DNA of 47,995 nucleotides, taken from the IMG/VR virus record IMGVR_UViG_3300038856_000020, positions 1-47,995 of that record; one strand, given 5' to 3'. The notes below the pieces were generated by a model. It was not told the DNA's origin. It made no database searches and saw only the letters and a list, made by a program, of their open reading frames with translations. Of the stretch, positions 5,655-47,995 are shown piece by piece (the first letter of the stretch is position 1; each line of letters starts with the position of its first letter). The position numbers were made by a program, and so were the translations under genes. This DNA is from a virus.

Positions 5655-6050
5655 ATGAGTAAAGAACTTATGGAAATATACACCATCATCTCTAGATATG
5701 GTTTATCAGACTGGCTGAGGTTAAAGAAAGAGAAAGAAGAATGGGGTCTTGATTCTGGGAAGAGCCATATATATATCTGCTACTATGAAAGTCTTATAGA
5801 AGAATCGAACAAAAAATATCCTGATCTGTGTAAGTATATATTTCCTCATTTTGATAACATCATTGATCGTAAATTCAAGAACTTTAATTATCACACAGAA
5901 AAAGATCACAGAGGATATTATATTTGGCATGGTCTTGGTTTTTGTATTTCCCTATCCTTCTTGGAAATCATAACCGAGAGAGAAGATAAACCTTTCTTCT
6001 CATGGTTACACGGTAAGAAATTACAATTTCATACTCAGAGTGGAATATAA
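5655..6050 (+). CDS. Hypothetical AT-rich protein (131 aa)
   Basis: An aromatic-rich, Lys/Glu-rich protein of unknown family. Its gene is visibly richer in A and T than its neighbours, which suggests separate acquisition. The bases before its ATG (GTGGACTATTCATCATG) nearly repeat those before the 5128 gene. A 15-codon ORF at 5611-5658 ends VDYSS and overlaps this start, mimicking the VDHSS end of the 4829 gene. Confidence 0.6.
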   Translation: MSKELMEIYTIISRYGLSDWLRLKKEKEEWGLDSGKSHIYICYYESLIEESNKKYPDLCKYIFPHFDNIIDRKFKNFNYHTEKDHRGYYIWHGLGFCISLSFLEIITEREDKPFFSWLHGKKLQFHTQSGI

Positions 6051-6051
6051 C

Positions 6052-6462
6052 ATGATGAAGCAGAACCTTTTTGTTTACGGCACGCTTAAGAGCGGTGAGT
6101 GTAACAACTTGTTCCTCAGAGACCAGGACTTCCTCGGAGAAGCAGTATCAGTCAAGAAATTCTTGCTCGAAGATTGTGGAGTGCCATGTCTGTGCCCCTA
6201 TGACTGTGCCAGAAACAGAAGGGTACAGAGGAAAGCAGGATACATCAAGGGTGAACTGTGGAGTGTGGGCAGGGTAGCCATGCGTCCTATCGACAGGTTG
6301 GAAGGTAATTATGTTCCTCTGATCAGCAGGTTCAGACTTGAGAGTGGTGTGGTGAAGACTGCTCTTGTTTACACCATGATGAATTGGAACCTCACCGATG
6401 ATGATGGATGTCAAACACCTGACGAAAATGGAATACTTGAGTGGAGCTGGAGGAGAAGATGA
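6052..6462 (+). CDS. Gamma-glutamylcyclotransferase-like (AIG2/GGCT) protein
   Basis: A 136-residue protein starting with FVYGTLKSG, the substrate-binding loop typical of the gamma-glutamylcyclotransferase/AIG2 fold. It continues with GYIKGELW and IDRLEGNY, which match the family strand and the Glu-containing helix near the active site. The known reaction releases 5-oxoproline from gamma-glutamyl amines or peptides. ATG 6052 was chosen; ATG 6055 and GTG 6040 are alternatives. It lies upstream of amidoligase and amidotransferase genes, an association known for this family in phages. Confidence 0.8.
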   Translation: MMKQNLFVYGTLKSGECNNLFLRDQDFLGEAVSVKKFLLEDCGVPCLCPYDCARNRRVQRKAGYIKGELWSVGRVAMRPIDRLEGNYVPLISRFRLESGVVKTALVYTMMNWNLTDDDGCQTPDENGILEWSWRRR

Positions 6463-6542
6463 TTGTCTCAATCACTGCCGGTACTGTGGTTCTCGTCGTC
6501 ACTGTCATTATCATGAACCTTCACCGCCTGGTGAAGAAGTAA
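6459..6542 (+). CDS. Membrane micropeptide (27 aa)
   Basis: ATG 6459 overlaps the previous stop, with AGGAG immediately upstream. Residues 2-19 are hydrophobic (IVSITAGTVVLVVTVIIM), followed by a basic end. Probably one transmembrane helix. Function unknown. Confidence 0.5.
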   Translation: MIVSITAGTVVLVVTVIIMNLHRLVKK

Positions 6543-6567
6543 TCCGAACAGAAGGAAACTTATCAAC

Positions 6568-7071
6568 ATGAAAACCAATCAATTCTACGGCCACAAGCTT
6601 CCCGAAGAGCCTGTCAACATCTTCGAGAAGTACGGTCCTATCAACGGGTATGACCTGTTCGAAACTTATAACAGCTATAGTGTAGACAACAGGAAAGCTG
6701 AACTTGGTATCAAGTTGGACAGTACTGAAGCAGACTCCAGTGGTCCTGTTGAATTTTACAAGTCCGTCTTGCTTCGACTGAGCAACGACATCCAACGAAT
6801 TCGAGATGTATTCTTACGCACTCCTCATGAGTTGAGGCAAGGATGGATGGTCGAGACTGTCGCTGGTAAGATGTGGATTTACAAGACCTTTGATGTGGCC
6901 AAGAATCCACCAAAGATTGCACACTCTCTCCCCGTCAGACACGAAGGCAAGACGCATCTCATCTGTCTCGATGAGAACTTGGTTCCTGTTCATCCTGTCA
7001 ACTTGACACATCATGATCACGTCAGATGTTTGCTTGATCTTTACCGCCACATCGCTCTTAATTCACTCTGA
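6568..7071 (+). CDS. Hypothetical protein (167 aa)
   Basis: A soluble protein of mixed alpha/beta character with a His-rich stretch near the end (LTHHDHVR). No recognised motif. ATG 6568 follows GAAGGAAAC. It sits between the cyclotransferase and tRNA-Arg and ends nine bases before the tRNA. Confidence 0.65.
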   Translation: MKTNQFYGHKLPEEPVNIFEKYGPINGYDLFETYNSYSVDNRKAELGIKLDSTEADSSGPVEFYKSVLLRLSNDIQRIRDVFLRTPHELRQGWMVETVAGKMWIYKTFDVAKNPPKIAHSLPVRHEGKTHLICLDENLVPVHPVNLTHHDHVRCLLDLYRHIALNSL

Positions 7072-7079
7072 ATTACTCA

Positions 7080-7156
7080 GTCCCTGTAGCTCAATTGGAT
7101 AGAGCAGTGGACTTCTAATCCACAGGTTACAGGTTCGAGTCCTGTCAGGGACGCCA
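7080..7156 (+). tRNA. tRNA-Arg(UCU)
   Basis: A complete cloverleaf: acceptor GTCCCTG/CAGGGAC, anticodon stem GTGGA/TCCAC, loop CTTCTAA with anticodon TCT at 7114-7116, a TTCGAGT T-loop, and an encoded CCA end. It reads AGA, a codon used heavily throughout this phage, so it probably supplements the host. Confidence 0.97.
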
Positions 7157-7189
7157 TTGTTGCTTCTTCTTTGTTGTTGGAGAAAGAAA

Positions 7190-8044
7190 ATGCCCAGCTA
7201 TGGTATTGAATATGAAATTCCAGGGACAAGACAGAACGCAATCTCTTCCATGAATCGAGGAGACTACGAAGAACTGTCTAAAGTCTTCGACTTTGGGGAA
7301 GACTTCGACTGTTGTGAGTTCAGGAGTAAGATATCTAACTCATTCAAGCAAGCTTCCAACAAAATGGAGGCTATGCTTTCAATGACTGAGAAGTACAAAC
7401 GTCATCCTTTGTTTACCCCAAGAGGAGATCTTGGTATTCACATCCACATTGGGATGCAGTCGTTCGACAATGAAAGAAGATTGGGTCGTCTGCTCATGTT
7501 CCTCAACGATCAGAAAGATAAGGAAAGAGCAGACAACTTCTTCAAACTAAGTGGAAGAATAGTATATCACGGGTACTATATGAATGCGAAACCCAGTCTG
7601 TTTGCTTATAAAATAGGCAACTATCTTGTCCTGAATGGGAGACAATACAACCTACACAAAGGCAGTAGACTGAGTAGTCGTGAAAGAGAAAACAAATATG
7701 AGTTACCAGACAAGACACCCTTCTATAAATTTTACACAGAAAGCAGTGTTAACAAGAAATCATACTGGTTGCCAAATTATGGAAGAAATTGCATTCTCGC
7801 GCCCAATTACTTAGGCACCCTTGAGCTTCGTATGTTTGCAAGTGATCCCAAGAGATTACTGCCCGCCTTGCAATTCGCAGAAGCCTTGCGTGAATTCAGT
7901 TATGAATTGAAGCATATCACACCAACCCCAACCTACCATCACTGGTACTCCTTCGTCAGTAGCTTTGATAAGTATAAGGATTTGATCAAGCTGTGTGAAG
8001 ACGAGGAGGTTTCACCCAAAAGGAGTAAGAAACATGCCGCGTAA
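7190..8044 (+). CDS. Amidoligase family protein A (284 aa)
   Basis: This has the pattern of the COOH-NH2 ligase (amidoligase, glutamine-synthetase-like) family. The first strand carries paired acids (YGIEYEI, Glu7 and Glu9), then CCEFRSK (Glu43), GIHIHIGM (His84 and His86) and TLELRMFAS (Glu212 and Arg214), followed by a helical end. These enzymes use ATP to join a carboxylate and an amine as an amide or peptide bond. ATG 7190 follows TTGGAG; an upstream start at 7157 would lie directly against the tRNA and is rejected. The substrate is unknown. Confidence 0.8.
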   Translation: MPSYGIEYEIPGTRQNAISSMNRGDYEELSKVFDFGEDFDCCEFRSKISNSFKQASNKMEAMLSMTEKYKRHPLFTPRGDLGIHIHIGMQSFDNERRLGRLLMFLNDQKDKERADNFFKLSGRIVYHGYYMNAKPSLFAYKIGNYLVLNGRQYNLHKGSRLSSRERENKYELPDKTPFYKFYTESSVNKKSYWLPNYGRNCILAPNYLGTLELRMFASDPKRLLPALQFAEALREFSYELKHITPTPTYHHWYSFVSSFDKYKDLIKLCEDEEVSPKRSKKHAA

Positions 8045-8264
8045 AAACCTCGATGTCAATCACATCGTTGTCAAGGTGAGACGAGATGAACTGGTTGAAC
8101 TCATCAAACATAACCTCAACGAAGCAATGTCGTTTGTGGACGAACACAAGTTCGACGCTGATCATCTGAAGACATTCAACTTCCTTCAGGCAAGAGCTAA
8201 TACATATGCTGAAGCTCTGTCTCGGAGAGTGGAAAAGCGTCTCAAGAAAGATTCGGCTGCCTGA
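8034..8264 (+). CDS. Hypothetical protein between two amidoligase genes (76 aa)
   Basis: ATG 8034 follows AAAAGGAG and overlaps the previous stop by 11 bases, so it is probably translationally coupled. The product is basic and helical, ending KKDSAA. No family recognised. Its position between two amidoligase genes makes it a candidate partner or acceptor substrate, but this rests on location only. Confidence 0.65.
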   Translation: MPRKNLDVNHIVVKVRRDELVELIKHNLNEAMSFVDEHKFDADHLKTFNFLQARANTYAEALSRRVEKRLKKDSAA

Positions 8265-8303
8265 AAGAGCAGGTAGAAACCCAAAGAAGGGAGGGTGTTC
8301 ACC

Positions 8304-10145
8304 ATGTTGATGGACTCAGTTCCTTATGAAGACCACGGTCCGTTCAGGGTCTATCAAACAGCACACAACAATCTGAATGTGTGGTTTCACCCTGACTTAA
8401 CAGTCAAGATGTTGAGCGAGTTCGGTTCATCATTGATTGAAAGATACCACACAGAGGGAATCCCAATAACTTGGGAGAACAACAACATAGTTGGATTCTT
8501 CTGTGCTTGCTTTCATCTAGTAGAAAACAGAAAGAATCTGACGGCCTATCTTAAGAGTCAAGGTTTCACCCTCACTGAGTTTATATTTCTACTCAGAGAT
8601 AAACCAGTAAATATGCTTACAGTGCCGAAAGCAAGATGGCTGGAGTTTCGTAACACACGAATGGAACTGACATCCATTAGTATTAATGTCATGATCGGAC
8701 ACGGTAGCGCAATCTCCCTGAAACACATAAAGACTCATCTTGACAGCAAGGTGATAAACACGTGTGGATATACTGGAACATACAAGAACACTCATGAAAT
8801 ATTCAACACACATATTTATTACTTTGTTCCTGCTCGTAACACACTGTTGAATGATTCAACCATACCACCTCATCACAGAAACTTTATCTGTCCAAACTGT
8901 AGTACTATATTAAAGAACTACACTCAACTCGTTGAGATAATCGAGCGAGATGTATTAATAAGATACAAATGCGCTCACTGTATGGGAAGAGAATTACGAG
9001 AACAAGTCCAAGAACCTGGGCCTGGCTCCTTCTTGAAGAAACTTGTTTATCCTCTTGTTAAGTCAGTTCCTCACAAGATTCTAAACTACACCGCAGACCC
9101 AATGAGATATGCAGAAGGATTCTTGTTAGGTAAGAATGAAATACAACAGAGGGTAAGAAGTAGAGATGTGACTTGCTACCTGGGTGTTGAGTTCGAGGTA
9201 ACATTCCCAACAATATCTTCAAGTGATAGGCTGTCTATCTTCTACAAGGATGTGATTGAATCGCTCAACAACACTGCCATATTAAAGTACGATTCTTCTG
9301 TTGGTTTCACCGAGAACAGGGAGCCAATACCTAATGTCATGGGCTTTGAAATAACATCCGTTCCGATGACATTCAAGAAACAACGGGAAGTGTGGAAACC
9401 ATTCTTTGAAAAGTTTGGAAGCAAGTTATTGGTTGATAAACATCCTTCAGGTATTCATGTTCACGTCAGCAAGAATGCCTTTACCAACTTCAATAGACAG
9501 AAGCTCCACTACTTCATGAACCGCGAAGTCAACAGAGAGTTCATGCTTCTCATCTCAGAGAGGAAGGAAGAACACTTCACCAAGTGGTGTCGTACAAACT
9601 ACGTCAAACTGGACAGAAGAACAGGCCGCAACTCACAACACGATTCAAATGGAAACATTACCAAGTATAGGGTGGTGTACACCAGACCTTATACTGAAGA
9701 GTTTCGATTGTTCAATGCTGTCAAGAAGTATGAACTCTTCATGAAGAACCTTGAGTTCATCATGGCAGTCAAACAATTCACTGAAGAACAGAGCATGAGG
9801 CTCTTGGATTACCGAAGCTTCGTTGAGTGGGTAGGCCAAAGAGGATTTACGTATCCCAATCTTTGTGACTTCCTGTTTGGAAAGGGACTCATCAATCGGA
9901 AGGGTGAAGTACAGATAAGCAAATCTTCTGTTGACAAGATGATTAACATGGAAGCTGAGAGATACGCTCACCTGAAGAACAAGCTAAAGAAAAAGACTGC
10001 TTCACCTTATCGGTCTCCGGAATATGTCAGAGACTACTTCCCAGAAAGAGACCCATCCCTCACAATAGCTTCTACTTCACCTTTCAGAGAGACAGTTAGA
10101 GAATTCTATACAACACCCCTAACGACCACACTCAGAAGAGGTTAA
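8304..10145 (+). CDS. Amidoligase family protein B with zinc-ribbon-containing N-terminal half (613 aa)
   Basis: Residues 1-190 are an unrecognised domain. Next comes a CPNC...CAHC zinc ribbon (Cys196, 199, 223, 226) and then an amidoligase domain at about 290-510. Its marks are YLGVEFEV (Glu296, Glu298), GFEITS (Glu349), GIHVHVS (His385, His387) and EEFRLFN (Glu466, Arg468). A basic tail follows. The core resembles protein A, but the protein is more than twice as long. The N-terminal half may select the acceptor or bind nucleic acid. ATG 8304 follows GGGAGG with nine bases between; a GTG at 8295 is less likely. The next gene starts two bases after its stop. Confidence 0.78.
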   Translation: MLMDSVPYEDHGPFRVYQTAHNNLNVWFHPDLTVKMLSEFGSSLIERYHTEGIPITWENNNIVGFFCACFHLVENRKNLTAYLKSQGFTLTEFIFLLRDKPVNMLTVPKARWLEFRNTRMELTSISINVMIGHGSAISLKHIKTHLDSKVINTCGYTGTYKNTHEIFNTHIYYFVPARNTLLNDSTIPPHHRNFICPNCSTILKNYTQLVEIIERDVLIRYKCAHCMGRELREQVQEPGPGSFLKKLVYPLVKSVPHKILNYTADPMRYAEGFLLGKNEIQQRVRSRDVTCYLGVEFEVTFPTISSSDRLSIFYKDVIESLNNTAILKYDSSVGFTENREPIPNVMGFEITSVPMTFKKQREVWKPFFEKFGSKLLVDKHPSGIHVHVSKNAFTNFNRQKLHYFMNREVNREFMLLISERKEEHFTKWCRTNYVKLDRRTGRNSQHDSNGNITKYRVVYTRPYTEEFRLFNAVKKYELFMKNLEFIMAVKQFTEEQSMRLLDYRSFVEWVGQRGFTYPNLCDFLFGKGLINRKGEVQISKSSVDKMINMEAERYAHLKNKLKKKTASPYRSPEYVRDYFPERDPSLTIASTSPFRETVREFYTTPLTTTLRRG

Positions 10146-10147
10146 AC

Positions 10148-11017
10148 ATGTGTGTCATCATATACAAACCAGCATCCATCACATTCCCGAAGCAAGACAT
10201 CGAAGCTGCACTACACCACAACAGCGATGGCTTCGGTTATATGTTCGTGGATGACGGTAGAGTCCTGACATCAAGAACAACCAAAATTGGTGCTGATGAA
10301 ATCATGGGTATCTTCAAGCAGAACATGAAGAAAGATACCTTCTATCACCTGAGACATAGAACTCATGGTGATGTGAGTGAGGAGAACTGCCATCCATTTG
10401 AAGTGATGAACAAGGAGCAACATGGTGTTGACTTGTTCATGATGCACAACGGAACAATACCCAAGTTTGGTTCGAATGCTGGTGGAAAGAGCGACACCTT
10501 GGACTACATTGAACAAGTTCTCCAACCTATACTTCAAGAGAACCCAAAGCTATTGTTTAATACAAGTTTCCAGAAACACATGTTGCTTCCGTCTATCGGT
10601 GGGTGGTCTCGTATCGCTTTCCTGAACAGTGAAGGAGAACAACTGATAGTCAGGAAGGAAGACGGTAAGACAAGACACGGTTGTTGGGTCAGTAATGACA
10701 GTTATTTTTCCCTCCCCCAGAACCAACCTTGGCGAGTTTACAATCAGAGTGGGCAAGATGGTGGACAGGGGGGTACTTCCTATAGTGGCAAGGGTTACTG
10801 GAAAGGTAACAAGTTCACACCTCAAAGCAACGTAACACACATAAACCATAAAGGTAAGAAAGATGAACGTAAACTTCAAGGTCTCGGGCTTTCACAGATT
10901 ACTGAGGATGAACTCAAATTTGCTACGAGAGCCGAGATTCTCCTCATCGCTATTCACGAACCCCACGAACTTGCAAACATTGTCTTCGATCTCCTACATC
11001 CCGGAGAAGCTGGGTAA
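10148..11017 (+). CDS. Class II glutamine amidotransferase (289 aa)
   Basis: An N-terminal-nucleophile amidohydrolase: MCVIIYKP places Cys2 at the new N-terminus after Met removal. The family motifs NSDGFGYM (25-32), HLRHRTHG (67-74) and MMHNGTI (98-104) follow. It should hydrolyse glutamine to release ammonia or act on a related amide. No synthase domain is fused; residues about 200-289 are a Gly-rich linker and a charged end. Being two bases downstream of amidoligase B suggests it feeds ammonia to, or edits the product of, that ligase. Confidence 0.88.
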   Translation: MCVIIYKPASITFPKQDIEAALHHNSDGFGYMFVDDGRVLTSRTTKIGADEIMGIFKQNMKKDTFYHLRHRTHGDVSEENCHPFEVMNKEQHGVDLFMMHNGTIPKFGSNAGGKSDTLDYIEQVLQPILQENPKLLFNTSFQKHMLLPSIGGWSRIAFLNSEGEQLIVRKEDGKTRHGCWVSNDSYFSLPQNQPWRVYNQSGQDGGQGGTSYSGKGYWKGNKFTPQSNVTHINHKGKKDERKLQGLGLSQITEDELKFATRAEILLIAIHEPHELANIVFDLLHPGEAG

Positions 11018-14370: not shown

Positions 14371-14470
14371 CCGGCGGGATAGCTGCTTTCAATTACGCAG
14401 GGGACAAGCCGGGCTATATATCCTACATTATTTCTTTCCCTATATAACTATATAGTTTACCCTGGGCTTA
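14371..14470 (-). promoter_or_regulatory. Leftward leader element matching the one at 47504
   Basis: Reading leftward from the promoter at 14477-14505, the transcript contains TGTAAGCCCAGGGT, then AACTATATAG, AATGTA and TATATAGCCCGG. The same blocks occur in the same order after the rightward promoter at 47471. No gene lies on this strand here, so the RNA is either a short non-coding RNA or antisense to the plus-strand genes ending at 14370. A CCGGC/GCCGG stem lies near its distal end. Confidence 0.5.
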
Positions 14471-14476
14471 CACCCT

Positions 14477-14505
14477 ATTATAGCATACTTTTGTTCATTT
14501 GTCAA
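14477..14505 (-). promoter_or_regulatory. Consensus sigma-70 promoter, leftward
   Basis: On the minus strand TTGACA (14505-14500), 17 bp and TATAAT (14482-14477), with TGC before the -10, match consensus. It points into plus-strand genes, which suggests a non-coding or antisense transcript. Confidence 0.8.
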
Positions 14506-14519
14506 CAAGAAAATAAAGC

Positions 14520-14548
14520 TTGACATTCCAGATATTATATGTTATAAT
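14520..14548 (+). promoter_or_regulatory. Consensus sigma-70 promoter, rightward
   Basis: TTGACA (14520-14525), 17 bp and TATAAT (14543-14548) with TGT before the -10. It is divergent from the promoter at 14477-14505 and serves the 14576 gene and the DNA polymerase operon. Confidence 0.88.
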
Positions 14549-14575: not shown

Positions 14576-14926
14576 ATGCCTGTTTGGAAACCTCTACCGG
14601 TTGAGAAAGAACCAAGAGTTGTCCTTCATCCTTGGTGCCGCATAAAACCTAATGAGTTAATGGAAGTTAACTTTCATCTTGTTGGAATAAGACCAGACGG
14701 AACAGCAAGAGTCTCTTCCAGGATAGTTAACTTTGGACATCCAATCAAGAGGTGGAGAGGAGAGGAAGAAGAAGATAACTTCCTGTTCAGAACAAGATCA
14801 GGGAGGCTTTACCTCTGCCTGGGAGAACCTCTCGAATATTTGAACACTGAGATGGAGTACCTCGTTAACGCTTGGTTAAGAACAATATCGGGAGGAGTCA
14901 CTTCATACATCATAGATAGCCCCTGA
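14576..14926 (+). CDS. Hypothetical protein behind a strong promoter (116 aa)
   Basis: A TAGGAGGAGAGG ribosome site and a consensus promoter suggest high expression. The protein is beta-rich, with an acidic EEEED stretch about residue 63 and no membrane segment. Not recognised. It is first in the polymerase operon. Confidence 0.65.
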   Translation: MPVWKPLPVEKEPRVVLHPWCRIKPNELMEVNFHLVGIRPDGTARVSSRIVNFGHPIKRWRGEEEEDNFLFRTRSGRLYLCLGEPLEYLNTEMEYLVNAWLRTISGGVTSYIIDSP

Positions 14927-15020: not shown

Positions 15021-15038
15021 TCTCAGAGTATATCCGTG

Positions 15039-16907
15039 ATGAAAACAGTTGTTTGTGATATTGAGACAGACGGACTCGACGCCACCAAGATATGGGTGGT
15101 TGTCTGTAAGGACCTGGAAACAGGTCAATTAGATGTTTTTAGAATGGACGAGAGCGATCCAACAAAACATCTGCTAGATTTTGAACGCTACGCTCAGTCT
15201 GTGACAAGCTGGATAGGACATAACTTCTTGTCCTTCGATCTTCCAGTCATCAAGAGACTAGTTGGGATTGATATCCCGGTAGATAAAGTCCAGGATACGC
15301 TCATTCTTGCACGATTTATCAGACCTGGCAAGCGGAATAGCCTTGAAGTTCTAGGTGAACTGATTGGTTTTCCCAAGACCTCTCTTGACACGTGGCAAGT
15401 ACTTACCGATGAGATGGTTGAATACTGCATCAACGATGTTGAAGTGAACCACAAACTTTATCGGTGGTTAGAACCTCGGTTGAGATGGTTCTCTGAACAC
15501 TCTATCCGTTTAGAGCATGACCATCAGGCCATCATGAACCAGCAGAAACGTGATGGTTTTCCATTCGATCTCGAAGGAGCAATCAAATTAAAAGAGGAAC
15601 TCGAAAGGAAGAGAAGTGAGGCCGAGAGCCTGATATGGAAGGACCTCAAGCCAATCGTAATTCCGGGAGAGCTGGTTACTCCAAAAGAAACGCTGTCTGG
15701 TGAAGTTCACATGCAGGGCGTCAAGCGTTTGGGGAACTACAAATCCTTATGTGAAGCAGGTGTGCCCCTGCAACACATCGAGTTCCAACCATTTGATCTG
15801 AATTCTCCCAAGCAGATCGTGAAACGTCTCGAACCTTTCTGGACCCCGGTCATCCGGACCAAGGGTGGTGAGAAGACTTCAAGAGAGTTTCAGAGTGGAC
15901 GGTTAACCGAAGAGGAATTCAGGGAGAAGTCAAGATATCAGTGGAAGGTTTGTGACGAAAACCTTGAAACAATATCTGAACATGCTCCCAGAGGCTTACA
16001 GAAGCTCCGTGAGAGGGCTGTCTTAAAGGCTAGGATAGACACGCTATCCCAACTTGTAGCGGCTACTGGAAGCGATCTGAGAGTACGTGGTGAGGTTATC
16101 AGCTTGGGTGCTACCACTCACCGATGTGCCCACAGAGAACCTAACTTGGCTAATATTCCAGCAAGAGGGAGTTCCTTATATGCCTCGGAAATTAGAAGTC
16201 TGTTTCGTGTGGAAGAAAGAAGTCACTCACTTCTCGGAGTTGATGCATCGGGAATACAACTTCGACTACTTGCACATTACCTCAATTCTGAAATCTATAC
16301 TCAGGTTGTCACGCGAGGGCAAAGCTCAGACAGATCAGACGTACACTCGTACAACTGGAGAACATGTTTCAATCTCCCTGAAGATTATTGGGTTAGCGAC
16401 GAGAATCGAGAAAAATCCAAAACTAATATCTATTCTTGGATATTTGGTGCTGGTGAAAGTAGGACAGCAAACATCCTTGGTCTTTCGAGACCTGAAGCCA
16501 GAGAAGTACGGAAACGTCTGGTTCATAACACACCTGGACTGAAACAATTCATTGATGAAATTGTCAAGCCTGCTGCCAGGAAGGGATTTGTTAAAGCTAT
16601 TGATGGTAGACTGATACCGGTTGAAAGCAAGCACCTCGTTGTTGCTGTTCTCCTTCAGTCAGCGGAAGCTATTGTGATGAAGGAAGCACAGCGTAAATGG
16701 GTAGCTGATGCTACTCGCTTAGGAATACCATTCTGGTTGTGTGCGTTTGTTCATGATGAATGGCAAACAGAAACATTTTCAGATATGGCTACGGAACTCG
16801 GACAACTTAAGATCGAATCTATTCGTTGGGCGGGAGAGTTGTTCGAGTTAAATTGCCCGCTCGACGGACAAGCTCAAATCGGTAACTCTTGGAAGGAGAC
16901 ACACTAA
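15039..16907 (+). CDS. Family A DNA polymerase with 3-prime exonuclease (622 aa)
   Basis: The replicative polymerase. The exonuclease domain has DIETDG (Asp7, Glu9), HNFLSFD and YCINDVE (Tyr129, Asp133). The polymerase domain has motif A LLGVDASGIQLR (Asp402), motif B REKSKTNIYSWIFGAG and motif C VHDE (572-574). It is about 80 residues shorter than T7 gp5, roughly the size of T7's thioredoxin-binding insertion, so it may work without thioredoxin. ATG 15039 was chosen over the GTG just before it. Confidence 0.95.
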   Translation: MKTVVCDIETDGLDATKIWVVVCKDLETGQLDVFRMDESDPTKHLLDFERYAQSVTSWIGHNFLSFDLPVIKRLVGIDIPVDKVQDTLILARFIRPGKRNSLEVLGELIGFPKTSLDTWQVLTDEMVEYCINDVEVNHKLYRWLEPRLRWFSEHSIRLEHDHQAIMNQQKRDGFPFDLEGAIKLKEELERKRSEAESLIWKDLKPIVIPGELVTPKETLSGEVHMQGVKRLGNYKSLCEAGVPLQHIEFQPFDLNSPKQIVKRLEPFWTPVIRTKGGEKTSREFQSGRLTEEEFREKSRYQWKVCDENLETISEHAPRGLQKLRERAVLKARIDTLSQLVAATGSDLRVRGEVISLGATTHRCAHREPNLANIPARGSSLYASEIRSLFRVEERSHSLLGVDASGIQLRLLAHYLNSEIYTQVVTRGQSSDRSDVHSYNWRTCFNLPEDYWVSDENREKSKTNIYSWIFGAGESRTANILGLSRPEAREVRKRLVHNTPGLKQFIDEIVKPAARKGFVKAIDGRLIPVESKHLVVAVLLQSAEAIVMKEAQRKWVADATRLGIPFWLCAFVHDEWQTETFSDMATELGQLKIESIRWAGELFELNCPLDGQAQIGNSWKETH

Positions 16908-18036: not shown

Positions 18037-18110
18037 GCCGGAGTAGCTTATTTGGTTAAAGCCCCACATTGTAAGTGAGAAGTAGAGAGGTTCAAATCCT
18101 CTCCCCGGCT
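18037..18110 (+). tRNA. tRNA-Thr(UGU), imperfect stems
   Basis: Cloverleaf with acceptor GCCGGAG/CCCCGGC (one A-C mismatch), anticodon loop ATTGTAA (TGT) on a CCCAC/GTGAG stem with one C-A mismatch, and a perfect T arm AGAGG/CCTCT. CCA is not encoded. It reads ACA, common in this genome. The mismatches suggest either decay or a tolerated variant. Confidence 0.75.
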
Positions 18111-18165
18111 CTTTATCAATCAAGAAAGAAATGTAAATTTGAACTCTCTATTTGGAGACAAGGCG

Positions 18166-23875: not shown

Positions 23876-23949
23876 GTTGGTGTAGCTCAACGGTAGAGCG
23901 CCGGTCTCCAAAACCGGAGATGAGGGTTCGATTCCTTCCACCTTCGCCA
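23876..23949 (+). tRNA. tRNA-Trp(CCA) with acceptor mismatches
   Basis: Anticodon stem CCGGT/ACCGG with loop CTCCAAA (anticodon CCA at 23908-23910), a good T arm GAGGG/CCTTC, discriminator G and an encoded CCA end. Acceptor stem GTTGGTG/CACCTTC has two adjacent U-U mismatches, which is unusual. It starts six bases after the reductase stop. Confidence 0.85.
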
Positions 23950-28221: not shown

Positions 28222-31200
28222 TTATTGTTCCTCGTCTGGCTTTCGTTCAGTGACTTGTTTGAACTTGTTGGTAATACCCTTTTGAGACAACCATTGTTCA
28301 ATCATAGGTCTCATCTTGGGTCCTGCCTTGTTGAGTGCAGTCGTCTGGATGCGTCTCCAATCTCTTGGGTTACTTACTTCTCTGATGAATGCAATCTGTT
28401 TACCAAAGGCTCTGGCTTTATCTTCGTCTCCTTCAGTTAATGCTCTGTACTGTTCAAACAACAAGGAAGACACAGTATTTGCTTTATCTGAGATACGTTT
28501 GTCTGTTTCTCTAAGCTGACTGTTCATCTCATAATAGAGATTGACATCTTCGAGAGGAATACCAAACAGAAGACCGATAGCTTCTTGAGTATTAACGTCC
28601 TTGATTATTGGGGTCTTGTCTTTACTGCTCAGATACATTCCAGTTTCAAGAGCGAACGCCATCCTGCTCGCTCTGTTCCAGGATGAAATATTCTGGGCAA
28701 TGTCGTTAATGAGAGAGGGAGTGACATCAACAATCTCGTTGAAGCTCAGGTCTCTCATATTGACAATCTTGGCAAATGAATTAAGAACGTCATTACCAAC
28801 ACTTACAGATGCACCACCAGCAATCTCCATGAAGCTCTTACCCTCCATGATATCTTGGAAGATATCTCCACCACCCATGATACCTGCTCTTGCAGAGAAG
28901 TCTGTGTCCATACCCAAGGTACCAAAAATGAAGTTGTCCAACACACCATCAAACAAGAGTTGTTCTGTCTCTACATCCAGAGCTTCACCAGTTGCTTCTT
29001 GAAATCTATCCTTAACCCAATCAAGAGTGGGAATACCAGCAGAGCCATATAACAAGAATTGACCAATAGCAAGCTGAGCCTTCTGTCTAGCCTTCAGATC
29101 AGGAGAACCACCTAACATCTTGGGAAGCATAAGTTCAACCAAGCGTGCTTGATAGGACATAAACTGAGTAGGAATGGATAACACCCCTCTCTGCCACCAG
29201 GCATTGCTGGCTCTGGACATATTAATAGCAAGTAGGTCTGTCTCTCTAACTAACTGTTCGAACTCTCTACCTTGGAGTTTCTTACCAGGATTATCTTTCT
29301 TCCACTTCCTCCAAGCCATATTGAAGGCAACAGTCTTGTTTAGTCTCTCACCTTCGATGAAGGGAATACGACCAGCTTCCAAGACTCTAGTGGTTGGATT
29401 AGTTAATATGTTACCAGGAAGACCTGAGGCAAGCTCATCGTAGATAGGGATGTTACCAGACACATCAAATGCTCCGCTTCGTCTCAGGTCATCGACGTAT
29501 TCAACGAACTCATCTTCGCTAAGACCGTGAAGGGACTTGAACTTCTTCCCAATATATCTGACAACAGGCTCCTTGGCATTGATCATAGCCATTCTGGTAG
29601 GAACGTAAGACATCCAACCCTTAGCTCCATTTATTGGATCAATGGAGAGAGCAGCAAATGCAGTCTGAGATTGAAGAAGGGTTTGAGATATGTCAAACAA
29701 ACCAAGCTTGAGGTTAAATGCGAAGCTCCTCAGAGCAACAATAGGATCAGAAGAGGTCGTATCCATCACCCATTTAGTTGCTTTAGTTCCAATGATTCCT
29801 TCCATTCTGTTGGCTATGTTTCTCATACTCTCTTGGAACCACAAGGTTTCTTGAGAAGGAGTACCAATCAACTGAAGGTGCGCTTTACGCATTGATTCAC
29901 CTTTAGCTATGATCTCAGACGGTGTCCCTGATTTCCACGTAGCACGATTAAAGTTCTGGACTCTGTTAAGAGAAGGATTAATCTCAAGATGATCTTTAAA
30001 TGTTTCCAGGAAAGTGTCAACGTTGACTCTGGTCAGGTCTCCGAACGCAGATACTCTGATGGCATGGTTGACACCAGCAGCAGCACTTCGATACGGATTT
30101 AGAATGTCAGCTTTTTCTCCTTCAGGATCGAGCAAGTGCTCTCCTTTTCTCCCATAGAACAATCTACCTGAAGTCCTGTACCAGTCGTGAATGTCATCTA
30201 ACTCGTCTGTTGCACTGCCGAGATATTGTCCTGAATTATGTATCTGAAGAGCTTCTCTGTCAAACACAGAGTCGAATGGAGTGTTAGCTTGAATGAGGTC
30301 TTCATCTACCATTCTGGAGAATTCACCAAAATCAGGAAGATAGGTATTCTCTGAGATGATACGAGTTGCTTCTGTTTCAGTTATCTCATTAGCAACTGCT
30401 CTCAAGTAAGCTTGTCTTGCTGTTTCCCATCTCTCTGCAAGTCTCTTGGCCTCATCTTTAGTTCGTGCCACGAAGTGAGTTTGTGGTCTCATAAAGAAAC
30501 GAGAACCACCTTCTTCCAACATTCGTGCTTGCTTGATGAAATACTTACCTTCGTAGATACGGTGTCCACCAGGGACATAGTTTAATTGAATGAAGTCCAG
30601 GATTTGTTGATCAATTTCTTGATCCTTGGCAAGGATGTACCTGAATGGAGTGCCAACATTACGTATAAGATCATCGCTTTCGTGAGGATCAATGAGCTTG
30701 TAACCTTGCTCTTTCAGTTCTGCGATGTCTTCATTGGTCAAAGAGCCAGGACGAAGAACCTTATCTTGATCTATACGATAGACAAAGTTTTCTCTCGCTC
30801 TCTCTACTTCATCCACAATTCTCCCGTTACCGGACCACTGTTGAGCAGGACCAGCTACATTAATTTTCTTAAAGCCATTACGAGCAAGCTCAGCATGAAT
30901 ATCTGTGTTGTGAAGGAACCAATCGAGATCGTTCAGGTCCTTCATAGCGAAGTAACCACTTACTTCATCATCAGTCGGTAATCTTTTATGAAGTTGTTGG
31001 TAGACTTTCTGAAGCTCCTCAATAGTGTACCACTTCGGAGGTACTTCGTTTGTCTGACCGTGATATAAGACTTCATTAAGAGCCTTCTTACCCCAAGAAG
31101 GAACCTTTCTCAGGTCTTTAGTAAAGTCTCTGAATTGTCTTTGTAGTCTGGCTGCTTGAGAAGAAGCAAAATGGTTGCGGTTCTTGTTTAAATTCTCAAG

Positions 31201-37725: not shown

Positions 37726-38648
37726 CAGGATGAAACTCGTCTACCGTAAAAATAAACAGGACCCCCAGTAATAGCACCGCCTGTCGAGAAGAAATCGAAA
37801 GCATCTACCGCTGAGGTTGTATTTAGAAGACCATGCCCTGCAACATAAAAGGTTGAACCTCCATCCCGGTGCACAGCTCCGCTCCACCAAATCGGTTTTG
37901 TCTTGGAAGTATTACCCGGATTTAATATCTTGGCTTTGATATAAGCCGAGCACGTTCCTCCATCCAGTAATTCAGTCCACTCAAGAAGAGTAGAAGCAGC
38001 AGAATTTCTATTTTGGATAGTTCCACTATCGAAATATCTGCGAGATTCCCATTCATATTGACCACTCGTCGTCAGAAAACCCCCTCCCTCTACTCTAAAT
38101 TGGCTCCACAGAGGGCGTCCAGAAGCACCTGTTGTGCGAACATCAGTAGCAATCATACAAATCTCAGAGAAATCTGCTGCATCATCTGTTACTGTATCGA
38201 ACAGAGTAATAGTCCCGCCGTCTGTAATAGTGCTTTGTGTTTTCAGGAGTTCCCACTTGATGTCTGCGATAGCAGACGAAGCTGTCAACGTAACAGTTGG
38301 TCCTGATAAACTTAAGTCCCAAGTAGAATCAAAATTGATATCAGAAGGAGTTGATAAAATCACTGTTCCGTTGTCAGAGACACTCACTCCAATTAATGTT
38401 GCCCCAGCTAGAACTTGACCAAGATTCGCAATCTCATTATCTGAAACAGCATCAGGAAGGTTGATAACAGTATATGTATCGTCCATATCAATGCTGGTTT
38501 TCATCACGTTCGGTTGAGCGCCATCTCTCGACAGAGTATTTTCTAAAGCTTGTTGAATCAGAGTAAAATTATAGTTGATAATACGAGTAGCTTCAGCTTC
38601 ATCTACCCCGGATATGTTCACTAAATCCGTCGTCGTAAGTTTAGCCAT
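37725..38648 (-). CDS. Tail appendage protein, paralogue 2 (307 aa)
   Basis: Residues 1-80 share MAKLTT, NTLSRDG, IDMD-TYT and LGQ with the neighbouring 301-residue protein, and both end in GG-V-YGRR or GKR. The middle has diverged. Beta-rich, likely a short fibre or receptor-contacting appendage. One-base stop/start overlap joins the paralogues. No T7 gp17-like fibre was found, so this pair may supply host recognition. Confidence 0.65.
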   Translation of the reverse strand: MAKLTTTDLVNISGVDEAEATRIINYNFTLIQQALENTLSRDGAQPNVMKTSIDMDDTYTVINLPDAVSDNEIANLGQVLAGATLIGVSVSDNGTVILSTPSDINFDSTWDLSLSGPTVTLTASSAIADIKWELLKTQSTITDGGTITLFDTVTDDAADFSEICMIATDVRTTGASGRPLWSQFRVEGGGFLTTSGQYEWESRRYFDSGTIQNRNSAASTLLEWTELLDGGTCSAYIKAKILNPGNTSKTKPIWWSGAVHRDGGSTFYVAGHGLLNTTSAVDAFDFFSTGGAITGGPVYFYGRRVSS

Positions 38649-39553
38649 TAAGACGACCTCTTGCCATAAATTAACACAGTGCCTCCCGTTATCGCATCCG
38701 TATCTGCCCGGAGACGAATAGCGTCTATCTCATTCGTCGTCGTAATTGAACCGCCTCCACTGATGCGATAAGAAGTACTTCCTTGCTCTGTGGTGCCATC
38801 AAAGAAAACAGTTTTTCTTCGTGCACTTCCCGGAGAAGATAAACTGATTGTGTGATAACAACTATCTGACCCACTACCTAATTCTGCTGGAGAGAATCTC
38901 ATCGAAGAATCGCCCGTACTATTTGCAGAAGTATTTGTTCCACTGTCGTTCCGATGGAACATATGCCAACGGTAGTTGGTTCCAGCCAAGAAAGAACCTC
39001 CGCTCTCTCTGACTTGAAAAGAAACAGTATCTGTCGAAACCCCATCTGTCGTTAGATTGAGGATGATAACTTCAATTTCAGCATAATCATCTGGTGTATC
39101 GCTACCAGAAAAGAAAGCCAGAGTTTGATCATCTCCTGTCAACGTATATGATTGAATAAGTCTCCCATCCGATTGATCAACCACAGTGATTGTAGCAGTA
39201 CTATCACCATCATCAGCGACAGTAATACCACTTCCAAAATTTAGATCACTGGCAGATGCTACTACTTCAACCGTTTCCGAAGAGATTGAAGGCCCTGTAT
39301 ATAGGACTCCAAGAGAGATAGTCTGTCCTAGTGTAACAGGCTCGTCGGAAGCTACAGCGTCTCTGACATTGATGAAGGTATAAGTACCATCCATGTCGAT
39401 GTTCGTTGCCATTGTGTTTGGAGTTGTACCATCTCGTGAGAGGGTATTCTCCATTGCTGTCTCGGTAGCAGCGAAGTTATCGTTAATTGTGCTGACAGCA
39501 GAAGCTTCATTTGTAGCTAGTTGTGTCAGATCATCTGTAGTTAGTTTAGCCAT
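38648..39553 (-). CDS. Tail appendage protein, paralogue 1 (301 aa)
   Basis: Paralogue of the adjacent 307-residue protein: conserved N-terminal 80 residues (helical, then a beta turn TYTFIN) and C-terminal 30 residues, variable centre. Rich in Thr, Ser and Gly. The helix-rich start probably docks on the nozzle, while the centre contacts receptors. Inferred from composition and position. Confidence 0.65.
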   Translation of the reverse strand: MAKLTTDDLTQLATNEASAVSTINDNFAATETAMENTLSRDGTTPNTMATNIDMDGTYTFINVRDAVASDEPVTLGQTISLGVLYTGPSISSETVEVVASASDLNFGSGITVADDGDSTATITVVDQSDGRLIQSYTLTGDDQTLAFFSGSDTPDDYAEIEVIILNLTTDGVSTDTVSFQVRESGGSFLAGTNYRWHMFHRNDSGTNTSANSTGDSSMRFSPAELGSGSDSCYHTISLSSPGSARRKTVFFDGTTEQGSTSYRISGGGSITTTNEIDAIRLRADTDAITGGTVLIYGKRSS

Positions 39554-45161: not shown

Positions 45162-46709
45162 TCAACCTATTCCACCAAACTTACTGTTATACATCATGTT
45201 CATTTCTTCTCTCTGGAAAGTACCTTCTGCTTCTCTAGCTGGAGCTTTAGCGATATCAATCGCCTGACTTAGAGCATCCTTAACATCATCGTGAGGGGGG
45301 TTGTCACTCACCAGTTCTTCCTCCAACACCTGAATACTCCCTCCCTGAAAATGATACACCTGTCTATTTTCATATCTAGGTCGAAGAACAGCGTCCATTC
45401 TCTCTTCCTTGGTCCCCATGTGTCTGGTGGGGCGATACTCATCAATAGCGAGAAAGATCCCATATTCCTTAATGTATTCTTTAAGAGAATTAACAATAGC
45501 CTTCTGTGCTACATTAACCTCTGCCCTTATCTTTCTGAACTGCCACTTGTTGTACAGAATTGATATGCGATCGAAGTAGTCCTTGATCTTGTCTGTCTTG
45601 AACCTGTCAATATCGAGGACAAAATAATTATGTTGAGAATCCATTCCGACGACAACAATAGACGTGTAGTCTGCTCTTGCAGCCGTTGAATAAGCGAAGT
45701 CCACTGCCGCAAAAACATTAAGTTTTCTCCTTCCCCTTATGTGCCAGCTACCGTTCCTTCTCTCCAGGAACTCTCTCTTGAAGTACTGGAAGTATTCCGG
45801 TTTAATCCCTCCCTCTCCGGGAGCATTAGGATCGTTATAGTACTGTGCACGAAACTGTCTCTTGTCCAGGTATTGTCCTCTCTTCTTCGAGAGAATCTGT
45901 TGGTCGAAACCAAACCACTTACCATCTGCCCTTCTCTGTCTCGACCATATGAAGTTACCGGTACCGTCCCCCCTATCTTCAACCTGACGCTGGAACACTT
46001 CGTAGATTGGTTCCCTCCCTGTAATTTCTCCAGCCTTGTTGTAGATTTCTTCTTCCATTTCCTCCAAGCGAGAGTAGAGGTCTCTAGCGTGATAGCGAGT
46101 TCCTACTGCCCACTCTCTGGCTTCCGCTCCTTCAATCGAAGCCAACAAAGAATATTGTTCTTCAACCTTCTTGCGGCCGTCAACAGAGTATGCGTTTTCC
46201 TGGACCACCACGTCATCAAGTACTGCGATGTCACAGTGTAGGCCAGTGAGAGAAGTAGTGAGACCACCAGTAAATATCGTTGGGTCCCGGACTCCTTCCT
46301 GCTTTCTCTTTGGGTGGTCGACTGCAATTTCATACTGTGTCCATTTCTCTCTCTTACCATCATCCGTGCTAACCATTTCAGGCCAGAACAGACGGTAAAT
46401 ATCCGAAGTAAAGATATCTTGAATAAACTTGAGTTGCTTTTCAGCCAACCTTGCAGTAGACGAGATATATAATACTCTCAAGGTAGGGTCTCTGGTAATA
46501 TACCAAGCCACCCTGTAGGCTATCATTGCAGACTTCTGGTGATCTCTTGGAAGGAGAACTAATTGGTGGCTCTTGGCTTCAGAGCGCTCCCAGAACCTGA
46601 ACAACTCCTTGTGAACGTTCCCAAGAACTCTGTGAGGTGAAACCAGGTTGATAAAGGTTTCGAGGTCATTCTCCGCTGCCTGTCTCAGTAGTTGGTGTTC
46701 CTCTCTCAA
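45162..46709 (-). CDS. terL: Terminase large subunit (515 aa)
   Basis: Packaging motor. ATPase with an unusual Walker A, PRDHQKS (54-60), in place of G-x4-GKS, similar to the PRxHxKS form seen in some phage terminases, and Walker B IAVLDD (Asp165, Asp166). The nuclease domain has AAVDFAYS (Asp337) and PHDDVKDAL (Asp474/475). Overlaps the upstream gene by 44 bases. Confidence 0.9.
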   Translation of the reverse strand: MREEHQLLRQAAENDLETFINLVSPHRVLGNVHKELFRFWERSEAKSHQLVLLPRDHQKSAMIAYRVAWYITRDPTLRVLYISSTARLAEKQLKFIQDIFTSDIYRLFWPEMVSTDDGKREKWTQYEIAVDHPKRKQEGVRDPTIFTGGLTTSLTGLHCDIAVLDDVVVQENAYSVDGRKKVEEQYSLLASIEGAEAREWAVGTRYHARDLYSRLEEMEEEIYNKAGEITGREPIYEVFQRQVEDRGDGTGNFIWSRQRRADGKWFGFDQQILSKKRGQYLDKRQFRAQYYNDPNAPGEGGIKPEYFQYFKREFLERRNGSWHIRGRRKLNVFAAVDFAYSTAARADYTSIVVVGMDSQHNYFVLDIDRFKTDKIKDYFDRISILYNKWQFRKIRAEVNVAQKAIVNSLKEYIKEYGIFLAIDEYRPTRHMGTKEERMDAVLRPRYENRQVYHFQGGSIQVLEEELVSDNPPHDDVKDALSQAIDIAKAPAREAEGTFQREEMNMMYNSKFGGIG

Positions 46710-47365: not shown

Positions 47366-47400
47366 AATCTTCCATTCTATATCGAATCTTCCATTCTATA
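47366..47400. repeat. Tandem 16-bp repeat at the late promoter start
   Basis: AATCTTCCATTCTATA occurs twice (47366-47381 and 47385-47400) with a 3-bp spacer, about 5-40 bases downstream of the leftward -10 box. Such tandem sites straddling the transcription start look like an operator pair for late-gene control. Confidence 0.6.
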
Positions 47401-47405
47401 CTAAC

Positions 47406-47434
47406 ATTATACCATACTTTAAAGCAAATGTCAA
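47406..47434 (-). promoter_or_regulatory. Consensus sigma-70 promoter for the late operon
   Basis: Minus strand TTGACA (47434-47429), 17 bp, TATAAT (47411-47406), TGG before the -10. It reads into the micropeptide, terminase and all structural genes. The tandem repeat lies right behind it. Confidence 0.88.
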
Positions 47435-47470
47435 GAACTATTTAACAAAAAGGTTAAATTAATTTTCTTC

Positions 47471-47499
47471 TTGACAAACGTATAAAAATATGTTATAAT
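47471..47499 (+). promoter_or_regulatory. Consensus sigma-70 promoter, rightward early
   Basis: TTGACA (47471-47476), 17 bp, TATAAT (47494-47499) with TGT before the -10. Divergent from the late promoter by 36 bp. In the circular genome it reads through the closure point into the early genes from base 285. Confidence 0.88.
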
Positions 47500-47503
47500 A
47501 TTA

Positions 47504-47620
47504 TGTAAGCCCAGGGTGATATATATAACTATATAGAGAATAGGTTAAATAACCCTAAAATGTACAAACTGTATATAGCCCGGGATATCCCCTCCACTAA
47601 AAATGGAGATATTCCCCGGC
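47504..47620 (+). promoter_or_regulatory. Rightward leader element with hairpin
   Basis: Contains TGTAAGCCCAGGGT, AACTATATAG, AATGTA and TATATAGCCCGG in the same order as the leftward leader at 14371-14470. A large hairpin follows: CCGGG-TATC-TCCA (about 47580-47598) pairs with TGGA-GATA-CCCGG (about 47604-47620). Likely an RNA-level control element. Confidence 0.5.
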
Positions 47621-47790
47621 TGGTAGGCGGGTTAGTTTCCTGGAACAGATTCTTTCATAGTTCCTATCGTTTAGAAAAATTACTAGAAAAATTCGAGGGT
47701 GAATGCACTACAACGACAACCCCCGCACCCCCTGCTACCACTTTCGGATTATATATTCCTACCATCAATGATCCCTTGCATACTACTTAA
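47560..47790 (+). CDS. Doubtful leader ORF (76 aa)
   Basis: An ATG without ribosome site opens 76 codons over the leader hairpin, ending in a Thr/Pro-rich tail. The related leader at 14371 has a stop as its second codon, so the shared sequence is not coding. The remaining bases to 47868 hold no other gene. Listed only because the region would otherwise be empty. Confidence 0.2.
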   Translation: MYKLYIARDIPSTKNGDIPRLVGGLVSWNRFFHSSYRLEKLLEKFEGECTTTTTPAPPATTFGLYIPTINDPLHTT

Positions 47791-47868: not shown

Positions 47869-47995
47869 TTATACCATCTTTGTCTATAAGTAAAGTTACA
47901 ATCCCTTAATGTTTACACCGTTAACAATAGATTGCCTTTCTACCACTAAAGTATTACCTCTAAAGAGATGTTGCACTACCACTTTTGTTTATGCT
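47869..47995. repeat. Right copy of 127-bp terminal redundancy
   Basis: Identical to bases 1-127; marks circular closure of the contig. The text before it (47821-47868) includes an isolated TTGACA without a fitting -10. Confidence 0.95.

Follow-up and report, generated by a model that had tools for sequence, protein, structure and literature searches.

The 47,995-nt viral stretch analysed here, referred to as the window, carries two copies (A and B) of what appears to be a cis-acting, non-coding cassette, composed of a strong sigma-70 promoter followed by a melting-prone, AT-rich and putatively structured leader. Each copy is tentatively read, at a probability of roughly 30%, as a transcript-primed replication origin of the T4 (oriF/oriG) or T7 type that would make use of the host RNA polymerase. 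The task of the cassette, be it to supply a primer for DNA copying or to modify the host RNA polymerase, is accessible by inference only. The features discussed are collected in Table 1.

Table 1. Coordinates of the two cassettes, their partner promoters and associated features in the window
Feature	Coordinates	Strand	Description
Promoter A	14477..14505	-	TTGACA-N17-TATAAT, 12/12, TG extension before the -10 box; reads leftward
Promoter B	47471..47499	+	TTGACA-N17-TATAAT, 12/12, TG extension before the -10 box; reads rightward, over the contig joint and on towards the early genes
Promoter P2, partner of A	14520..14548	+	12/12 consensus; directed into the ORF at 14576 and the gene for DNA polymerase
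Promoter P4, partner of B	47406..47434	-	12/12 consensus; reads into the terminase/structural operon
Leader A	14371..14472	-	homologous to leader B; 3' hairpin end, CCGG at 14374-14371
Leader B	47504..47621	+	homologous to leader A; 3' hairpin at 47577-47621
TGTAAGCCCAGGGT (14-mer)	A 14472-14459; B 47504-47517	A -; B +	
AACTATATAG	A 14457-14448; B 47527-47536	A -; B +	8 nt out of register between the copies
AATGTA	A 14429-14424; B 47559-47564	A -; B +	6-mer, of little weight
TATATAGCCCGG (12-mer)	A 14420-14409; B 47572-47583	A -; B +	
TCCCCT	A 14404-14399; B 47588-47593	A -; B +	fifth shared word
Least stable 50-bp stretch of the genome	47454..47503		promoter B to leader start; nearest-neighbour profile
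Second least stable 50-bp stretch	14414..14463		inside leader A; nearest-neighbour profile
76-aa ORF starting inside leader B	47560..47790	+	probably not a gene
DNA polymerase gene	15036-16907		read from promoter P2
Terminase large subunit gene	45162-46709		in the operon read from promoter P4

From its sequence, the window is assigned to a Zobellviridae-like podovirus, a virus of bacteria. Its terminase is 59-64% identical to those of the Zobellviridae cobaviruses SIO1, P12053L and ICBM1-3, and the identity of its DNA polymerase to the cobavirus enzymes is about 36%. The gene order is of the Zobellviridae type, with a replication arm read rightward and a structural arm read leftward, and the replisome is T7-like, comprising a DNA polymerase and a primase/helicase. 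No match to an RNA polymerase was found among the window proteins searched, and cobavirus SIO1 is described as lacking this enzyme (Bischoff et al. 2019, PMC6775973). The contig ends overlap by 127 bp (1-127 and 47869-47995). An overlap of equal length is present in G003, the closest relative contig, so that this feature may be a k-mer overlap left by the assembler and not a genuine terminal repeat. An Rfam search of the whole window returned three tRNAs and nothing else, with no match to either leader at E values up to 1. The tRNA genes are Arg-TCT (7080-7156), Thr-TGT (18037-18111) and Trp-CCA (23876-23949); for ICBM1 and ICBM2, none are reported (Bischoff et al., PMC6775973). The region 6040-11017 gives matches to a gamma-glutamyl cyclotransferase, a class-II glutamine amidotransferase and, weakly, an amidoligase, and clusters of this kind are annotated in MW202697 and PQ867843.

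The similarity of the two leaders goes far beyond chance, and the copies are truly related. Local alignment from just after the -10 boxes gives a score of 45.8; none of 5000 dinucleotide shuffles exceeded 29.6, and the best of about 3780 genome windows reached 24.4. In a self-BLAST of the genome, the sole dispersed repeat is 47459-47540 versus 14517-14436 (82 nt, 80.5% identity, E=1.5e-14), the remaining match being the terminal overlap. The four words that the initial annotation had reported in the same order behind both promoters were all located, and the separation of 15 kb in the circle given there agrees with a circular distance of 14.9 kb. The homology itself also stands, but the block is longer than first described, extending over about 14371-14518 and 47462-47621. 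It starts at ATTTTCTT, about 8 bp upstream of the -35 box, spans the promoter and continues through the 14-mer, the AT-rich stretch, the 12-mer and TCCCCT to a closing CCGG. The leaders are about 100-118 nt long and lie on opposite strands, and the AT-rich stretch of each is 76% AT versus a genome average of 56%.

A protein-coding explanation of the shared leader fails. In copy A the ATG is directly followed by TAG, as had been pointed out before, and no credible minus-strand ORF was found downstream. The ORF that starts inside leader B has neither a Shine-Dalgarno site nor a Pfam match, and tblastn against 50,697 phage records returned nothing for it. Beyond B, a strong Shine-Dalgarno site is first seen at an ORF about 1.8 kb further on, and genes with weaker sites could intervene. 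The earlier proposal of conservation at the nucleic-acid level holds as far as the shared leader is untranslated, whereas conservation as RNA is less certain: identity is alike in the leader (77/98) and in the promoter region (33/42), and a run-length test on the conserved blocks is non-significant (P=0.18). Because of these two results, selection on the leader RNA is considered likely, short of proof, and a fairly recent duplication with drift could also be the source of the similarity.

Both cassettes belong to divergent promoter pairs, an arrangement that the initial annotation had overlooked. Perfect (12/12) promoters number only five in the entire window, and four of them fall into the pairs 14505-/14520+ and 47471+/47434-. 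In the A/P2 pair the -35 boxes are 14 bp apart, and the ATG at 14576, downstream of P2, is preceded by AGGAGG. Copy A sits between the primase/helicase and DNA polymerase genes, and its promoter points into the primase/helicase gene in antisense orientation and has no operon to drive; copy B is located at the divergence of the early and late transcription arms. The starts of P2 (14520-14571) and P4 (47434-47380) have TTGACATT and the initial transcribed motif GTT(TG/A)GTATAG in common, and AGTATAGAAT of this start is also present after a promoter at 5856 of MW202697. Separately, the leader of the late promoter 47434- contains an exact tandem repeat, AATCTTCCATTCTATA, in two copies 19 bp apart (47366-47400).

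In the preferred reading, host RNA polymerase would initiate from the cassette promoter, and the untranslated RNA would remain hybridised to the AT-rich stretch as an R-loop. The T7-like DNA polymerase and primase/helicase would then extend this RNA, with forks presumably leaving leftward from A and rightward from B. Such an origin is ranked first because it alone explains both the otherwise useless transcription from A and the easiest-melting stretches. A further reason is that some source of primers is needed by a T7-like replisome whose phage brings no RNA polymerase; given that SIO1 lacks the enzyme, host RNA polymerase would have to provide the primer. The two lowest stabilities of the genome coincide with the B and A cassettes, A being barely ahead of the third-ranked stretch (-1.072 vs -1.080). 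No gene is served by A, which lies beside the replication genes, and B occupies the early/late divergence in the manner of active T4 origins, which are located where transcription diverges (PMC3016281). Unstable stretches are also found at the same junction in cobaviruses: in ICBM2 the perfect rightward promoter of the junction is followed by a leader that is the least stable 50 bp of the genome, and in several other members the junction holds one top-ranked unstable stretch. Furthermore, the GC skew at third codon positions switches sign at A, from -0.087 on the left to +0.031 on the right, a shift that fits a leftward fork and is non-significant in a gene-level test (p=0.11). Against an origin, it must be considered that intergenic promoter regions are AT-rich in any case and that an equivalent of A is missing from most relatives. 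In addition, T4 R-loops need no specific sequence (PMC3016281), so that it would be left unexplained why the 14-mer and the 12-mer, both of which contain GC, are conserved.

Nearly as likely as the transcript-primed origin is a put-like RNA antiterminator, in which the leader would fold on the nascent RNA and make the host RNA polymerase pass terminators or Rho sites. The layout matches that of phage HK022, whose genome has two similar put RNA elements, each placed behind a promoter of its own (PMC9378689). A location at the beginning of the transcript is consistent with this role, as are the long, Rho-accessible untranslated runs with which both transcripts open. Pairing within the leaders points in the same direction: the first conserved block of either RNA, together with the AU run that follows it, can pair with the second, UAUAUAGCCCGG, and in both RNAs the second block can alternatively pair with a downstream segment to give a 3' hairpin. 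The 5' helix and the 3' hairpin are thus predicted to compete for one block. In the predicted folding of growing transcripts the first pairing is favoured early, and at full length the pairing flips to the second in B and only partly in A. Support for the leader structure is modest, with duplex p values of 0.09 (A) and 0.011 (B) for the first helix and 0.16 (A) and 0.047 (B) for the second. The folding-energy z-scores of leader B are about -1.8 to -2.3, with -3.2 for its 3' hairpin; those of leader A, about -1 to +0.8, are unremarkable. This ordinary folding energy of A speaks against an antiterminator, as does the fact that A has no operon to antiterminate. Neither the Rfam search nor a by-eye comparison with putL from the HK022 record revealed any likeness, and A and B are the only two leader sequences from which pairing can be judged. 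An attenuator was considered and rejected, as the hairpins are not followed by a U-run.

A DNA operator appears unlikely. Here the block would bind a phage or host regulator controlling P2 (replication) and P4 (late), and A and B would be minor or autoregulated arms. Each cassette does lie upstream of a divergent gene promoter, the leaders contain AT-rich near-palindromes (CTATATAG and CTATATAGTTATATAG), and P2 and P4 share the initial sequence GTT..GTATAG. However, the spacing differs, the 14-mer being 48-61 bp from the -35 box of P2 and 70-83 bp from that of P4; the perfect promoters A and B would be left unexplained, and no regulator was identified in the window.

Less probable still is a promoter cassette that was duplicated or is mobile, with the promoter as the only part that matters and the leader similarity as a remnant of duplication. 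The equal similarity of promoter and leader and the run pattern described above are compatible with it, and promoters with short shared leaders do occur in relatives. In Siovirus P12053L, the promoter/leader segments 30125-30156 and 38631-38662 are identical at 32/32 positions, and the same holds for ICBM1 and SIO1; these paired promoters serve the capsid gene and the late operon and have the first 22 transcribed nt in common. Nevertheless, the 14-mer and the 12-mer of the window are intact, unlike the middle, where differences and gaps have accumulated, and the homology ends sharply at the distal CCGG, within the 3' hairpin. The least probable option is a small-RNA family, in which A (perhaps also B) would give a short, stable transcript with a protein or RNA as its binding partner, and A might serve as a decoy for the leader of B. 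In favour of it, A is antisense and does not code for protein, and the two RNAs are alike in sequence. Against it, no convincing intrinsic terminator follows A, Rfam gives no match, and B runs on towards the early operon.

No copies of the cassette were found in IMG/VR, GTDB genomes or INPHARED phages, collections from which the records nearest the window may be absent, and no homologue of the element was found in the related phage genomes examined. The 14-mer has 45 matches in IMG/VR, none of them accompanied by the second block, and a search of the same collection for both blocks returned zero matches. In GTDB, both blocks gave 65 matches; only two of these come with a promoter matching 9 of 12 positions or with an AT-rich spacer, and both are unconvincing. 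The promoter combined with GCCCAGGG gave 20 matches, mostly coding or due to chance, the promoter combined with the GTAAGCCC pattern gave none, and blastn of both leaders against phages returned merely short AT-rich or promoter-like matches. Leaders of superficial similarity follow the promoters 7869+ and 20683- of G003, but their alignment is non-significant, with shuffle p values of about 0.07 to 0.56. In ICBM2, a perfect antisense promoter is present just before the primase gene (2672-2600, minus strand, leader AGGGCTTGTCCCTGACAAGGG) in a position that recalls copy A, with no clear homology to it; no perfect antisense promoter near primase was found in CRP4, CRP5, ICBM1, P12053L or SIO1.

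What the related phages do have at the early/late junction are perfect promoters with foldable AT-rich leaders, the z-scores of the junction leaders being -5.1 for ICBM2 (early), -2.7 for CRP5 (11-of-12 promoter) and -2.2 for an IMG/VR cobavirus group. Because the relatives show junction leaders but not this cassette, structured junction leaders seem to recur in the group, whereas both the cassette described here and the doubling of it appear confined to the lineage of the window. Dispersed intergenic AT-rich repeat pairs of unrelated sequence occur in CRP4 (1668-1748/39797-39886) and PQ867843 (569-661/11961-12043).

For Zobellviridae-type podoviruses, with their T7-like replisome and, in SIO1, no RNA polymerase, a description of how replication is primed or the host polymerase controlled was not found. 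A duplicated non-coding cassette heading the replication and late operons offers two exact loci at which these questions can be addressed. A wider proposition, which is doubtful at present, is that T7-supergroup phages without an RNA polymerase might replicate from paired host-polymerase promoter/leader cassettes, with RNA structure helping to set the primer; A and B would then be one such pair.

Among known systems, the Siovirus leaders (AGTCTTAACAAGTCTCCCCTGC) resemble A and B in that two perfect promoters per genome, in the same virus family, have a common transcript start. They differ in being only 22-32 nt long and in lying on the same strand, with one before the capsid gene, and they have no apparent sequence homology to A and B. 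The mobile promoter/stem-loop cassettes of T4-type phages, reportedly described by Arbiol and co-workers in 2010, likewise combine a promoter with a foldable element repeated in one phage genome; in contrast, A and B are only two copies, have the promoter first and then the hairpin, and are placed at divergent promoter pairs. The put element of HK022 opens the transcript with two stem-loops of about 70 nt and acts via the zinc-binding domain of the RNA polymerase beta' subunit. As with putL and putR, A and B are two similar, in their case putatively structured, elements at the untranslated start of transcripts made by host sigma-70 RNA polymerase; they differ in their greater length, in showing no sequence likeness, in the lack of an operon behind copy A and in the weak support for their structure.

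The T7 primary origin consists of a promoter and an AT-rich unwinding region. T4 oriF and oriG, of about 100 bp each, are likewise built from a promoter and an A+T-rich unwinding element (PMC3016281). Unlike A and B, which are homologous, oriF and oriG share little sequence, and the T4 and T7 origins use MotA-dependent or T7 RNA polymerase promoters, whereas A and B have host sigma-70 promoters. The likeness to these origins lies in a promoter placed directly before a very AT-rich melting stretch, in an untranslated RNA, and in a location near replication genes or at a divergence of transcription.
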